Under the pieces are notes generated by a model. The model was not told where the DNA came from. It searched no databases and saw only the letters and a program-made list of their open reading frames with translations. The translations under genes and the position numbers were made by a program. 49,902 nt of DNA. Origin: Candidatus Iainarchaeum sp. (GTDB taxonomy: Archaea; Iainarchaeota; Iainarchaeia; JAGGVJ01). Numbering within the stretch: position 1 is the stretch's first letter; every line of letters starts with the position of its first letter. Where the stretch lies: positions 1 through 49,902 of the forward strand of contig JAGGVJ010000013.1 of the NCBI GenBank assembly GCA_021158055.1, in the 5' to 3' direction. Positions 28,621 to 40,712 of the stretch are shown in pieces.

Positions 28621-28630
28621 GTTTAAATAT
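28621..28630 (+). promoter_or_regulatory. Box A of the pilus operon, leaderless promoter
   Basis: GTTTAAATAT is centred about 28 nt before the ATPase ATG and no ribosome binding site intervenes, so the operon probably begins with a leaderless start. Confidence 0.5.
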
Positions 28631-28653: not shown

Positions 28654-31600
28654 ATGAGGAAAGTGAAACTTAGGCGAATTGTCAAGTATGTGAAATCAAA
28701 GCACGACGATTATTTGGCTAAACATCAAAAGGAATCTTTACTTAAAGTTAAGCCTGTTAAAAAGGTCAAAAAGCCTGTTAAATCACAAAAAAAGCTATTT
28801 AAGTCAACTAAATCTGTTAAAAATCCTGTTGCAAAAAAACCCGCGCGTGTTTTAAAAAAGCAAAAAGAAGTTTCCAAAAGGGTTTTGAAGAAGGTTCTTG
28901 GGAAGAAGTTGAAGGTGAAGGTTTCGAAGAAGTTTTCCAAAAAGGTTTCTAAAAAAGTTCCTAAGAAGGTTTCGAAGGTAAGGGTTTCTAAAAAAGTTCC
29001 TAAGAAGGTTTCTGGGAAGAAGTTGAAGGTAAGGGTTTCTAAAAAAGTTCCTAAGAAGGTTTCCAAAGTAGAAAAACGAAAGCCAATTGTTAAAAAGAGA
29101 AGAACTGTGTTCTCAAAAGCGGTGGGGATACCAGGCGGTATAATACATGCGTTGGAAAACACTGCCACTGACGCAACTGAAAGAACTTTTTCGGCAGTTT
29201 CCGCAATAAGAAGAGAACTTGATGAAATAAAAGTCCACATACACCATTCCAAAAAATCAACTGGAAGAATAAAAAAAAAGCCGGCGTCAAAAGGAACCCG
29301 CGCAAAATCAAGTTCATTGAAAGGAAAGAAAAGCACAGAATTGCTGAAAACCAAAAAAACCGGAAAAATCCAGGCACATGCGGGTTTAGACAAGGAAAAA
29401 TGTGTTTTTCCGAAAATTGAAGCCGAAGTAGAACTGCTTTCAAGAGAAGAACTGAAAATTGATTTAGAAGAAAAAATAAAAATTCTTGAAAACCTTCAAA
29501 GAAAACTCATGTCAAGTGTGTTGACCTCGCACGACGTGCTTGCAAAGTTCAGCAAAAAAAGATTTGATTTGAAGGAAGGCGATTCGGTTGAATCGCTCAG
29601 TGCCGAAAGAGACAAATTAACCAACATGATAAGTCTTACAAAAATAAAGTATTACAAAAGACAAATAGACAGCCCGACTTTTAACAAACTGAATTCTGAG
29701 CATTTATCCCGCTTGATTGAAGTGGAATCGAGAATGAAGCTATTGAAAAAAGGTTCTCCTGAAAAAAAACAGGGTTATGCATCCGAACAAAAAAACATTG
29801 TTACTGCAGACCTGAAGACATCAGAAGTAAAAGCAATAGCTAAAAAAATATCTGAGAACAGTGAAAAAGACACCATGTCCCTTTCAGACAGTATTGACGA
29901 GCTGAAACAAGTCATACTCTCAAAAAAAGAGACAGACGCCGATGAACAGAAAAAACAGAAGATTAATTCTTCAGGTGATGTTCAAGTGGTTTCCGAAACA
30001 GCCGCGGTTTTAAGCGGGTCAACTCAAAAAGGGAAAATTCCTTATGATAGGAAAGGTTTTCAGATGCCGTCAATTGCAAACCTGCCGACGGAAGTTGTTG
30101 AGAAGTCAATGTTTATTGAGTCAACTTCACCGCTAAGAAAACTGGAAAAAAAGTCAGCAGTAAAAGAAAAATTGATCGGCAAGGCCAAGTTTGATAAAAA
30201 ATACCCTATTAAAAAAGAGGGGGTCAGCGTACGGGTATATTGGGATGAAAAGGAAAAAAGCTCAAAATACATGGTTTCGGAACCGGAGTTGAGTCCGGAA
30301 GAAAAACCTATTCTTAATAGCCTTAAAGAAGAAGTGATGGATGTTGTCCAAAGCGACCTTTATTCCCTTGAGTCGCAAAACAAAGCCAAAGACTACCTTA
30401 ATGAAAAAATAGACCGGGCATGCCAGTCCCTGAATATCAAAAATAAGTTAAGCATAAAAAAATACAGGTACTACATTTTGAGGGATTTTGTCGGCTACGG
30501 AAAAATAGACCCGATTATGAATGACCCGAACATTGAAGACCTTGGATGTGACGGTTTCAACATACCCGTGTATTTAAGGCACAGGAAATACGGGGCTTTG
30601 AAAACAAATATAGCGTTTGAAAAAAAAGAACTCAAGTCATTTGTGGTAAGGCTGTCACAGCGGGCAAACAAATTTATTTCTTTTGCCCAGCCGCTGATGG
30701 ACGGCAGTCTTCCGGACGGAAGTAGGGTGCAGGCTACTTTTGGAGGGGATGTGTCTCCGAAAGGTCCGTCTTTTTCAATAAGAAAATTCAAGGAAAACCC
30801 AGTGAGTCCGGTTGAATTGATTTTAAACGGCACATTGAGCGAAGGGATGATGGCTTTTTTCTGGCTGTCGATTGAATACGGTCTTTCAGTGATTATTGCA
30901 GGCGGAACAGCGACCGGAAAAACAACTCTTTTGAACGCGATATCTCTTTTTATTCCCCCTGATTTTAAAATAGTTTCGATTGAAGACACACCAGAACTTA
31001 ATATCCCCCACGATAACTGGATACAGAGCGTTTCAAGAATCGGTTATGGTCCGTCTTCTCTTTCAGGTGAAAGATACGGTGAAGTTACCATGTTCGACCT
31101 TTTGAGAGCCGCGTTCAGGCAAAGGCCGGATTATGTTCTTGTCGGCGAAGTAAGGGGAAAAGAAGCGTATGTGCTTTTCCAGGGAATGGCTTCAGGTCAC
31201 GCTTCACTTGGAACAATGCACTCAAACTCGATTGAAGACCTTATAAGCAGGCTTCAGACGCCACCGATAAACCTGCCGCCTTCGCTCATAAAAGTCCTTG
31301 ATTTGATTGTAATCCAATCACTGACTCCCTTAAGAGGCAAAAGCGCCAGAAGAACAAAAGAAATAATTGAGATTCACGACGTTGACATGGAAACTGACAA
31401 GCCGAACGTAAACAAGGTCTACAGGTGGGATCCGAGAGCAGATGAATTTTATTTTTCCGAAGTGAGCTTCAAAGTAAACGAAATCAGCGAAAGAACAGGC
31501 ATTAGCAGCAAAGTGCTCCAGGAAGAACTGCACAGGAGAACAGATGTCTTGAGATGGATGATAAAAAACAACACCACTGACTTTCTTTCTGTTTCAAAAA

Positions 31601-31761
31601 TAATTGCTGATTATTATCAGGATCGCGAAGGAGTGATGAAAAGAGTAAACCTCAGCAATATGGCAAAAATCAAAAAAGACAATCTTAAAGGTCCTTATGA
31701 AGAACTGTCGCCGCCGGCAAATGAGTCGCCGCCAGCAGATGACAATCAGAAAATTGCGTGA
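28654..31761 (+). CDS. Type II/IV secretion (pilus) ATPase with lysine-rich N-terminal extension
   Basis: A 1035-residue protein. The C-terminal half (from about 550) is a normal archaeal FlaI/TadA/GspE-type ATPase: LRDFVGYGKIDPIMNDPNIED, Walker A GGTATGKTT at about 750-758, Asp box and Walker B-like RPDYVLVGEVRGKEA at about 825-838, and the His box GHASLGTMHSNS. The first about 270 residues are extraordinarily basic, with repeated VSKKVPKKVSK modules (about 95-140), then an amphipathic helix (HALENTATDATERTFSAV) and further Lys-rich sequence. Residues 270-370 are predicted coiled coil (YKRQIDSPTFNKLNSEHL). It powers assembly of the pilin-like proteins downstream. The basic tail is unlike ordinary family members and may bind nucleic acid, membrane or polyphosphate. 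Confidence 0.9.
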   Translation: MRKVKLRRIVKYVKSKHDDYLAKHQKESLLKVKPVKKVKKPVKSQKKLFKSTKSVKNPVAKKPARVLKKQKEVSKRVLKKVLGKKLKVKVSKKFSKKVSKKVPKKVSKVRVSKKVPKKVSGKKLKVRVSKKVPKKVSKVEKRKPIVKKRRTVFSKAVGIPGGIIHALENTATDATERTFSAVSAIRRELDEIKVHIHHSKKSTGRIKKKPASKGTRAKSSSLKGKKSTELLKTKKTGKIQAHAGLDKEKCVFPKIEAEVELLSREELKIDLEEKIKILENLQRKLMSSVLTSHDVLAKFSKKRFDLKEGDSVESLSAERDKLTNMISLTKIKYYKRQIDSPTFNKLNSEHLSRLIEVESRMKLLKKGSPEKKQGYASEQKNIVTADLKTSEVKAIAKKISENSEKDTMSLSDSIDELKQVILSKKETDADEQKKQKINSSGDVQVVSETAAVLSGSTQKGKIPYDRKGFQMPSIANLPTEVVEKSMFIESTSPLRKLEKKSAVKEKLIGKAKFDKKYPIKKEGVSVRVYWDEKEKSSKYMVSEPELSPEEKPILNSLKEEVMDVVQSDLYSLESQNKAKDYLNEKIDRACQSLNIKNKLSIKKYRYYILRDFVGYGKIDPIMNDPNIEDLGCDGFNIPVYLRHRKYGALKTNIAFEKKELKSFVVRLSQRANKFISFAQPLMDGSLPDGSRVQATFGGDVSPKGPSFSIRKFKENPVSPVELILNGTLSEGMMAFFWLSIEYGLSVIIAGGTATGKTTLLNAISLFIPPDFKIVSIEDTPELNIPHDNWIQSVSRIGYGPSSLSGERYGEVTMFDLLRAAFRQRPDYVLVGEVRGKEAYVLFQGMASGHASLGTMHSNSIEDLISRLQTPPINLPPSLIKVLDLIVIQSLTPLRGKSARRTKEIIEIHDVDMETDKPNVNKVYRWDPRADEFYFSEVSFKVNEISERTGISSKVLQEELHRRTDVLRWMIKNNTTDFLSVSKIIADYYQDREGVMKRVNLSNMAKIKKDNLKGPYEELSPPANESPPADDNQKIA
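28944..29063 (+). repeat. 30-bp identical repeats within the ATPase gene
   Basis: An identical 30-bp block beginning GGTTTCTAAAAAAGTTCCTA occurs at 28944, 28983 and 29034, encoding VSKKVPKKVS. A second block, GGGAAGAAGTTGAAGGT, occurs at 28900 and 29014. The repeats build the basic N-terminal domain in frame. Confidence 0.9.
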
Positions 31762-31897: not shown

Positions 31898-32800
31898 TTG
31901 TACTGCTCAAGGATAATGTCATTTATCCTGGGGAGAAAAATTCATTTCATGGACTCGATGAAACAAACATATATGTCTGCAAACATTTCGCATTCCATGA
32001 ACAGTTATGCTTCGGCACTGTTTGTCACTACTGTTTTGGTCGGGTTGGTTTTCTTTTTGGCTGGAATAGGTCTGTTTTCTTTTTTTCTTCCAATGGTAAT
32101 TAATTTTCCAAACAGTTTTGTTTTTACAGTCCTTGTTTTTTTGATGTCACTGCTTTTAGGGGTTCTTTTTGGAGCGGTTGTATTTATGATGATCTATTAT
32201 TACCCGTCACAGCGTATGGATTACAGGCGCAAGAGGATTAACCTTGATATGTCATATGCACTGAGTTACATGGCTTCAATTGCGGGTTCAGGTGTTGCGC
32301 CGCAGGTAGCGTTTAAAATGCTTGCTGAAATAGGCGAATACGGTGAAGTTTCCACGGAAACCAAGCACATAGTCAGGGACCTTGAATTAATGGGAAAAGA
32401 TTTGAACAATGCTCTTGTTGACGCGGCAAAAAGAACACCCAGCACCCAGTTTGCACAAATTCTCATCAGCATCAGGGGAACTTTGCTTGCAGGCGGAAAT
32501 TTTATGATTTACCTTAAAGAAAAAGCACAGGAGCAAATGTTTGCACAACAGCTTCGTGAAAGGCAGTACACAAAAACAATGGAGTTATACTCGGATTTTT
32601 ACACTATACTTGTAGTTGCTGCTCCGCTTTTTATTGTGACGATGGTTCTTGTAATGGGTCTTGTCGGCGGAAGTGAAACTTTGCCGATCCCGGCAATAAA
32701 TGCCATTCAAGTGCTTTCATATTTTATCATTCCCGCGATAAACATTGTGTTTCTTTTCGTGATAAAAAATGAAGCTGAAAGCAGGGGGGTGGTCGGATGA
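31898..32800 (+). CDS. Pilus assembly inner-membrane protein, FlaJ/TadC type (first)
   Basis: A T2SSF-family protein with membrane helices near residues 40-65 and 78-102, a cytoplasmic helical domain (YALSYMASIAGSGVAPQVAF, with RDLELMGKDLNNAL) and two C-terminal helices. It forms the membrane platform that the ATPase acts upon. The called start is TTG 31898. The frame is open upstream to a TAA near 31861; ATG 31916 or 31949 are alternatives. The preceding 50 bp encode a plausible missing N-terminus in another frame, so the 5' end may contain an indel. Confidence 0.8.
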   Translation: MYCSRIMSFILGRKIHFMDSMKQTYMSANISHSMNSYASALFVTTVLVGLVFFLAGIGLFSFFLPMVINFPNSFVFTVLVFLMSLLLGVLFGAVVFMMIYYYPSQRMDYRRKRINLDMSYALSYMASIAGSGVAPQVAFKMLAEIGEYGEVSTETKHIVRDLELMGKDLNNALVDAAKRTPSTQFAQILISIRGTLLAGGNFMIYLKEKAQEQMFAQQLRERQYTKTMELYSDFYTILVVAAPLFIVTMVLVMGLVGGSETLPIPAINAIQVLSYFIIPAINIVFLFVIKNEAESRGVVG

Positions 32801-33669
32801 AACTGAACATGTTTCAAAAAAGACTGCTTTTCGGGATGCTTATCGGTTTAGTTATCATTATCGGAGCTGTTGTTTTTCTTTATGAAACAAGATTTTTCCA
32901 AAGCGGAGTAATACTTGGAATAATGGCTGCAGCAAGTTTCCCTGCAATACTCGGTTACATTGACTTCCAGCGCGTTCAGGTATATGAAAGCAAATTTCCG
33001 ACTTTTTTGATTGATCTTGTTTCGTCAATGGAATCAGATATGACTATACCTCAGGCAATTAACCTGGCGTCGTCAGGGGATTACGGTGCCCTGACACCTC
33101 ACATAAAAAATCTTAACAAAAATATTTCCTGGGGCAAAAGTTTTGAGGAGTCATTGAAAAGGTTTTCATTTGACTGCAATTCACCGGGAATCACCCGTTC
33201 AGTGAGTGTTATTATCGGGGCATACAAGTCAGGCGGGGAAATAAATCAGGTTCTTCGCGCTGTTGCGGAAAACCTTCTCAAGATAAAACAGGTAAAAACC
33301 GAGCGCGCGTCAGACATGCAGACACAGGTAATAACCGGTTACGCAATTTTTATAATTTTTCTTTTTATCATACTTGTCCTGACAAATATTCTGCTTCCTG
33401 CAATCGGCGAAACAGGCAAATTACTGGAGGAAAATATAGAGGGAGGCATGGACCAGTCATTTTTAGGTGAAGGAAACGAAATATTTCAGTTTACAAGTTC
33501 AGAGGAGATTTACCAGTACAAAGTAGTGCTTTTTCATATGTGTCTGATTGAAGGGCTGTTTACGGGATTAATTATCGGGCAAATGACAAGCGGAAACATA
33601 GTGAACGGCGTGAAGCATTCGCTTGTCTTGTTTACAATTGCTTTCATGGTGTTTTCTGTAATAATCTGA
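32797..33669 (+). CDS. Pilus assembly inner-membrane protein, FlaJ/TadC type (second)
   Basis: A second T2SSF-family protein of 290 residues. Two N-terminal helices (about 8-27 and 33-52) precede the helical T2SSF domain (PTFLIDLVSSMESDMTIPQA, SWGKSFEESLKRF, IIGAYKSGGEINQVLRAVAE) and two or three C-terminal helices. It overlaps the previous gene by ATGA. The pair probably acts together, as TadB and TadC do, each contributing half of the platform that is one long protein in archaellum systems. Confidence 0.88.
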   Translation: MKLNMFQKRLLFGMLIGLVIIIGAVVFLYETRFFQSGVILGIMAAASFPAILGYIDFQRVQVYESKFPTFLIDLVSSMESDMTIPQAINLASSGDYGALTPHIKNLNKNISWGKSFEESLKRFSFDCNSPGITRSVSVIIGAYKSGGEINQVLRAVAENLLKIKQVKTERASDMQTQVITGYAIFIIFLFIILVLTNILLPAIGETGKLLEENIEGGMDQSFLGEGNEIFQFTSSEEIYQYKVVLFHMCLIEGLFTGLIIGQMTSGNIVNGVKHSLVLFTIAFMVFSVII

Positions 33670-33723: not shown

Positions 33724-34287
33724 ATGTTTATGGACTCAAAAGCAGTTTCGCCGGTTATTTCCACGACAATGATGGTTCTTCTAATGGTGATAATTGTTGC
33801 TTCCATGTACTCGTGGTCAGGCGGCATCTTAAAGGAAATGCAGGACGCTGCAACCATCGGTCAGGCAAGGTCTTCGCTGACTTCAATGGATCTTGCGATA
33901 AAAGGAGTTGTAAGAAGCAACGTGGGTTCTGTCCGTGTTGTTGAAGGGACTTTGATTGAAGGGACTGATTTTGACGCGGCAAACAATTCAATCACTTACT
34001 CGCTTCTTTCACCCCAAAAGTTTTTCCCGCATATCGCATTGGCAGACAGTAACATGACGATAAACGACAACAGGTTTGGAGTAGTGCTTATAAGATTCAA
34101 TGAAAAAAGCAACATATACGTTGGTTCCATGCCCATGGGCGGAAGTTACCTTAATGTTATCCAAATAAAATACACCAATGTTGATCTGCAGCTGGGCGGA
34201 AGCTGGGCAACCCATTCGCAAAGACAGATCTTTAGAAAAACAGGTTACAGCGGAAACACAATAATCGTTGAAGGTGAAGCAAGTTGA
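33724..34287 (+). CDS. Archaeal type IV pilin-like protein
   Basis: A 187-residue protein with a class III signal: DSKAVSPVISTTMMVLLMVI at the N-terminus, the classic archaeal pilin A-V-S-P-V-I hydrophobic start. Cleavage by a prepilin peptidase after SKA is expected. The rest is a beta-rich extracellular domain (about 40-187). A TTGA overlap couples it to the next gene. It may be the major subunit of the filament, since it is the first and most canonical pilin of the operon. Confidence 0.82.
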   Translation: MFMDSKAVSPVISTTMMVLLMVIIVASMYSWSGGILKEMQDAATIGQARSSLTSMDLAIKGVVRSNVGSVRVVEGTLIEGTDFDAANNSITYSLLSPQKFFPHIALADSNMTINDNRFGVVLIRFNEKSNIYVGSMPMGGSYLNVIQIKYTNVDLQLGGSWATHSQRQIFRKTGYSGNTIIVEGEAS

Positions 34288-40481: not shown

Positions 40482-40712
40482 TTGTCCGAAATTGCGCGTC
40501 ATACTATTTCCCGAGTAATGAAAAATTTCGGGGCCGAAAGAGTCAGTGAAACCGCGGCCGATGAAATGGCGGGACTGACTGAATCATACATAAGAAGAAT
40601 TACTGAAACAGCTTCCAAGATAGCAAAACACTCCGGAAGGGTGACTGTCAAGAAAAAAGATATTGAACTGGCTGTCGATGAGCTTCACGTTGGCGTGGGG
40701 CTCTCAAGGTAA
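40482..40712 (+). CDS. Archaeal histone
   Basis: A 76-residue histone-fold protein of the HMf type: three helices without extended tails, with the loop residues AKHSGRVTVKKKDIELAVDEL. Compact and DNA-binding, it packages the chromosome. TTG start at 40482 is supported by GGAGGGGG 4 nt upstream. An N-terminal SEIARHTISRVMKNFGAERVS replaces the common PIAPxxRI start. It is co-directional with ftsZ and the PRC gene. Confidence 0.93.
   Translation: MSEIARHTISRVMKNFGAERVSETAADEMAGLTESYIRRITETASKIAKHSGRVTVKKKDIELAVDELHVGVGLSR

Follow-up and report, generated by a model that had tools for sequence, protein, structure and literature searches.

A polycationic, repeat-built N-terminal extension on a pilus-type secretion ATPase of a DPANN archaeon

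Background

Two unsettled questions about archaeal pilus motors are what keeps them at the membrane and what role their variable N-termini play. A gene of Candidatus Iainarchaeum sp. raises the second in an extreme form: what could a long, lysine-laden polypeptide be doing in front of the core of a secretion ATPase? The gene lies in a stretch of 49,902 nucleotides (contig JAGGVJ010000013.1 of assembly GCA_021158055.1), which is referred to here as the window. An extreme, naturally amplified basic N-terminus of this kind is a convenient test case for archaeal pilus motors. If such a tail binds DNA, it would also be an unusual link of a surface machine to the chromosome.

Results

Identity of the motor and its neighbours

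The gene (28654..31761, forward strand) begins with ATG and is a continuous open reading frame for a pilus/archaellum-type secretion ATPase of 1035 amino acids with a polycationic N-terminal extension. The region before the core has 512 residues and a net charge of +84, and the ATPase core starts at residue ~513. The core (residues 513-1000; 30190..31653, forward strand) contains a T2SSE domain at residues 675-906 (Pfam PF00437, 114.7 bits with a gathering cut-off of 24.9) and a PilB3_C domain at residues 938-999 (34.9 bits with a cut-off of 27). The Walker A motif GGTATGKT is found in the translated frame at residues 750-757 (30901..30924, forward strand). The best NCBIfam match is the archaellum motor ArlI/FlaI (NF058587), with a score of 402, which is under the equivalog cut-off of 550. 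In a Foldseek search with the predicted model, the best matches are to archaeal GspE and FlaI structures (2oap, E 7.7e-54; 4ii7, E 2.1e-49). The core shares fold and sequence with these motors; their solved chains have ~510 residues and do not have the Lys-rich extension.

Downstream on the same strand are two platform genes, identified by domain matches as T2SSF halves (31898-32800 and 32797-33669), followed by a gene for an archaeal pilin-like protein (33724..34287) with weak matches that are all below cut-off (UpsA, 1.2e-05; Pilin_N; DUF7266). The gene order ATPase-F1-F2 is repeated in many homologous loci. The protein is thus a DPANN motor that drives assembly in a type IV pilus-like system.

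Reading frame and translation start

Homologs often begin 40-70 residues ahead of the core, which would speak for a misannotated start, with translation beginning downstream of the annotated ATG and the Lys-rich part not being protein. Such a misannotation is scarcely credible. Over codons 1-245 the other two forward frames have 18 and 20 stops and the reading frame has 0, and not one of 2000 dinucleotide-Markov simulations gave a frame open over 250 codons, so the open frame exceeds chance. No in-frame ATG follows the start before residue 286, and the variation among the repeated tetrads described below is mostly synonymous. A TATA-like element, TTTAAATA (28622..28629, forward strand), starts 32 bases upstream of the ATG and would yield a leaderless or nearly leaderless transcript. 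Of 210 genes whose upstream regions are free, 19 have a TATA-like motif starting at -34..-26 and 9 have one at a control offset, so the element gives modest support for the annotated start. A sigma-70 and terminator scan, a scan type ill-suited to archaea, stayed at shuffle level. An antisense open reading frame of 222 codons (28725-29393, reverse strand), rich in Phe and Leu, is probably a mere mirror of the Lys codons.

Composition and repeats of the extension

Residues 1-150 (28654..29103, forward strand) form the polycationic region, with 37% Lys, 7% Arg, 3% Asp and Glu together, and a net charge of +61; Val makes up 19% of these residues. Residues 151-200 are neutral and have 6% Lys. A second Lys-rich stretch, predicted to be disordered, covers residues 201-250 (29254..29403, forward strand; 30% Lys, net +14). 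It is followed by a charged helical/linker region at residues 251-512 (29404..30189, forward strand; 16% Lys, mixed charge, net +9), and the Lys content of the core is 8%. The predicted pI of residues 1-250 is 11.2. The initial annotation described about 270 residues dominated by Lys; this is true of about 200 of them (1-150 and 201-250) and not of residues 151-200. Among 306 open reading frames sampled from the same genome (334,738 bases, that is, the window and 18 further stretches), the extension is top both in density of Lys and Arg (0.50 in 60 amino acids; the next has 0.38) and in net charge per 100 amino acids (+45; the next has +22).

The polycationic region includes a part (28849..29064, forward strand) in which a 12-bp unit encoding the four residues V[S/P/L]KK is nested in 51/63-bp repeats. 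Three identical 30-bp direct repeats (28944..28973, 28983..29012, and 29034..29063, forward strand) lie inside this V[S/P]KK module, exactly at the positions first given for them. The 29-base core of the unit has three exact copies genome-wide, and no further copy with up to three mismatches was found elsewhere in the genome. The number of repeats may be affected by short-read assembly, which can miscount them. The source genome, with 1,147,527 bases spread over 45 contigs and a completeness of 94.9%, could be a metagenome bin. When the V[S/P]KK module was searched across 87 genomes of the phylum with up to two mismatches, five genomes matched, and the match without mismatch was confined to the present genome. 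The other four are at chance level, since a reversed control pattern matches more genomes.

Lys codons in the repeat part are AAG in 19 of 27 cases, compared with 310 AAA and 122 AAG codons in eleven other genes of the window (p 1.4e-5). In residues 1-75, Lys codon use does not differ from that of the other genes (p 0.49). The repeats therefore look like a recent local expansion within an already basic region. In five consecutive tetrads, a small sample, pS is 0.73 and pN is 0.18, the pattern that retention of the Lys pairs would produce.

Predicted structure

The AlphaFold2 model was built from 51 aligned sequences. Its mean pLDDT is 70.8, and most of the core exceeds 90. Values below 50 are found for residues 31-67, 82-161, 202-250, and 421-508; low values are expected anyway in the extension because it has no aligned homologs. 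Helices are predicted at residues 2-29, 66-82, and 162-201 and within 252-433. The model thus suggests an extension that is mostly disordered, with short helices, before a confidently predicted core.

The predicted N-terminal helix (residues 2-29; 28657..28740, forward strand) is basic, with a net charge of +7 and a block pLDDT of 67-89, and is not significantly amphipathic compared with shuffled sequences (p 0.35; the first helix of this motor has p 0.13 in the family survey below). The helix at residues 66-82 (28849..28899, forward strand; net +6) is predicted to be basic and amphipathic (p 0.027), and that at residues 162-201 (29137..29256, forward strand; pLDDT mostly 74-86) neutral and amphipathic (p 0.005), each being one of eight stretches tested. 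For residues 251-512 no homolog is detectable. Residues 255-365 resemble by eye the pre-core helices of a group of homologs (L026-L036), but this likeness was rejected as homology after profile comparison (hmmsearch E 1; hhalign probability 0.1).

Distribution of the extension and N-termini of relatives

The homologs collected comprise 106 open reading frames (loci L009-L116), of which seven are truncated where a contig ends and two form an identical pair. None of those examined has the Lys-rich extension. The pre-core region of 512 residues is the longest in the set, followed by one of 364, and the N-terminal net charge of +84 is the highest, followed by +27. In the tree, the motor stands next to a paralog that this genome also encodes; the grouping has an SH-aLRT of 99, and the branches to the two proteins are long. 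The paralog has a shorter basic N-terminus (+21 over 135 amino acids). Of the 87 phylum genomes, among which the present genome is the sole representative of its order, 21 match the secretion ATPase at E<=1e-100, and the longest other open frame has 829 codons. A search of the same genome with residues 1-260 returned the query itself and one weak match (E 0.08). For the extension, no relevant sequence match was found in Pfam or NCBIfam (E<=10) or in the PDB (E<=1). No relative was found in 108 candidate stretches of viral contigs, and tblastn against plasmids gave, among the records listed, none covering 80% of the query. The one paper found to use both "secretion ATPase" and "lysine-rich" describes an eight-residue linker and no tail.

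The polycationic, repeat-built N-terminal extension is real, as confirmed above. Its absence from the homologs examined, on an ATPase of the FlaI/TadA/GspE type, points to a lineage-specific addition. Homologs that start at the core had been named beforehand as a reason to doubt the extension; the homologs seen do lack it, and this argues for such an addition, not against translation.

Many relatives nevertheless have a basic N-terminus. The survey covered 81 complete homologs, including this one, that start with ATG and carry 30 or more residues in front of the core. Their first 40 residues have a median net charge of +4, with at least +4 in 44 of the 81 and zero or less in 22, whereas the median charge of the core is -6. 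Tested against shuffled sequences, the N-terminal helix is more amphipathic in 10 of the 81 at a threshold of p<=0.05 and in 23 at p<=0.1 (binomial 3e-6 for the latter); binomial values are optimistic here because the 81 proteins are related. Among ten T2SSE proteins from a separate group within the phylum, the same test gave p<=0.05 for seven. Aenigmatarchaeota and other DPANN homologs have short basic N-termini, sometimes amphipathic, before the same core. While these are mostly 40-70 residues long with net charges of +5 to +16, this motor has 512 residues and +84. The extension thus seems to be a common feature taken to an extreme.

Discussion

The explanation we favour, tentatively and at somewhat under even confidence, is that the polycationic tail is an electrostatic tether of the motor to the membrane side. 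Reading from the N-terminus, a basic helix would come first, then a polycationic segment that is disordered; next would follow an amphipathic helix without net charge, another stretch rich in Lys, and a linker of helices that leads to an ordinary core. Most of the disordered segment appears to consist of V[S/P]KK tetrads and to have been enlarged by tandem duplication. With six such tails per hexamer, each of about +84, the motor would be kept at a cytoplasmic surface of negative charge. The likeliest candidate is the inner face of the membrane, which is acidic, next to the platform proteins. The tail would then be an overgrown version of the short, basic N-terminal regions found in many relatives.

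It is reported that ArlI is membrane-associated, that tetraether lipids raise its ATPase activity, and that rotation, though not assembly, depends on its first 29 residues (PMC8978795). An N-terminus tied to the membrane is what ArlI would have in common with the proposed tether. EpsE is stimulated by acidic phospholipids and FlaI by lipids (PMC6325625). However, the N-termini of ArlI are described as negatively charged and the loops of the platform as positively charged (PMC8978795), a pattern opposite to the basic N-terminus of this motor. Across 60 loci, N-terminal charge and platform charge show no correlation (rho 0.18, p 0.16), so docking to the platform by charge matching is not supported. 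In addition, the first helix of this motor is not significantly amphipathic, and the amphipathicity signal of the family is thus weakest where it matters.

A tail this charged should bind polyanions and would bind nucleic acids as well. It could act like the tails of H1 or AlgP/PhaF, binding DNA or RNA and positioning the motor relative to the chromosome, a role that we consider rather unlikely. The present tail has neither a KPAA nor an SPKK motif. The comparison with histone H1 made in the initial annotation holds for composition and for the four-residue periodicity; it does not extend to sequence, the searches above having given H1-like families no match to the tail. The tail of AlgP is disordered, binds DNA, and consists of KPAA repeats of variable number (PMC9239181). 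Both kinds of tail are Lys-rich, disordered (here by prediction), and made of rearrangement-prone four-residue repeats, and the Lys tetrads with proline seen here resemble those of AlgP. While the AlgP/PhaF and H1 tails are C-terminal and based on KPAA, this one is N-terminal, based on V[S/P]KK, and placed on an ATPase. The genome has two histone-fold genes, and a cytoplasmic-type FKBP that it encodes also has a Lys-rich N-terminus, both of which would suit a nucleic-acid partner, but the motor operates at the membrane and the basic N-termini of its relatives are short. A distinctly unlikely extension of the same idea has the H1-like tails of the hexamer bound to the nucleoid of this archaeon, which has histones and a small genome, with the core docked on the platform in the membrane. 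The position of the pilus, or DNA traffic that it carries, would then be coupled to the chromosome. Binding of polyphosphate by the tail is suggested by AlgP, which has a Lys-rich tail and associates with polyphosphate granules (PMC9239181). Neither PPK1 nor PPK2 was found in this 94.9% complete genome, which makes this reading most improbable.

The tail may also have no specific partner at all. A basic N-terminus that grew by slippage and was tolerated outside the core in a nearly neutral way is unlikely, though a serious contender. The 30-bp copies are identical and therefore recent, the AAG bias of the Lys codons in the repeats is the mark of a recently copied seed, and homologs lack the extension. 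CpaF without residues 1-78 leaves phage infection unaffected (PMC11300603), indicating that disordered tails of this kind can be dispensable, which also speaks against a tether. Yet Lys-rich residues 1-75 and 201-245 lie outside the repeats, with ordinary codon use in 1-75. Asp and Glu are nearly missing from residues 1-150, and pS of the tetrads is well above pN, although the sites are few. Some classes of CpaF orthologs have a disordered N-terminal tail and others do not; the tail of class II is proposed to modulate direction (PMC12019362). By analogy, the present tail could modulate hexamer assembly, direction, or ATPase rate. CpaF/TadA of class II belongs to the same ATPase superfamily and also has a disordered tail ahead of a helical bundle. 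However, CpaF is bacterial and its tail has ~79 residues, while the tail here has ~250 residues plus a linker and is polycationic and repeat-built. Excerpts of the two CpaF reports (PMC12019362, PMC11300603) do not describe that tail as polycationic, and no partner or site for regulation is visible in the present protein, making this role improbable.

Other secretion ATPases and basic proteins

Several observations concern other genes. One of the two histone-fold genes is in the window (40500-40676, forward strand), downstream of ftsZ. The cytoplasmic-type FKBP prolyl isomerase with the Lys-rich N-terminus (L131:18306-18986, reverse strand) adjoins an FKBP paralog that is lipoprotein-like and contains a near-identical stretch. 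The genome has seven T2SSE secretion ATPases over the cut-off in 1.15 Mb, and one of the seven (L014) has, by eye, a ferredoxin-like Cys-rich N-terminal region. At two Thermoplasmata loci (L097 and L116) two ATPase genes adjoin each other and are followed by the platform halves.

In a broader T2SSE search, frames of more than 1000 amino acids were found in other genomes of the phylum among the matches listed. Ten such T2SSE loci (L152-L161), eight above 1000 amino acids and two shorter, have frames of 755-1104 amino acids. Their N-termini are of moderate charge; the strongest has a Lys and Arg density of 0.45 in 60 amino acids, with many acidic residues too. All ten have an insert after the conserved NTGHDG motif of the ATPase. 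Three of the loci were scanned, and each has an intein-splicing domain, in two of them together with LAGLIDADG and HTH domains.
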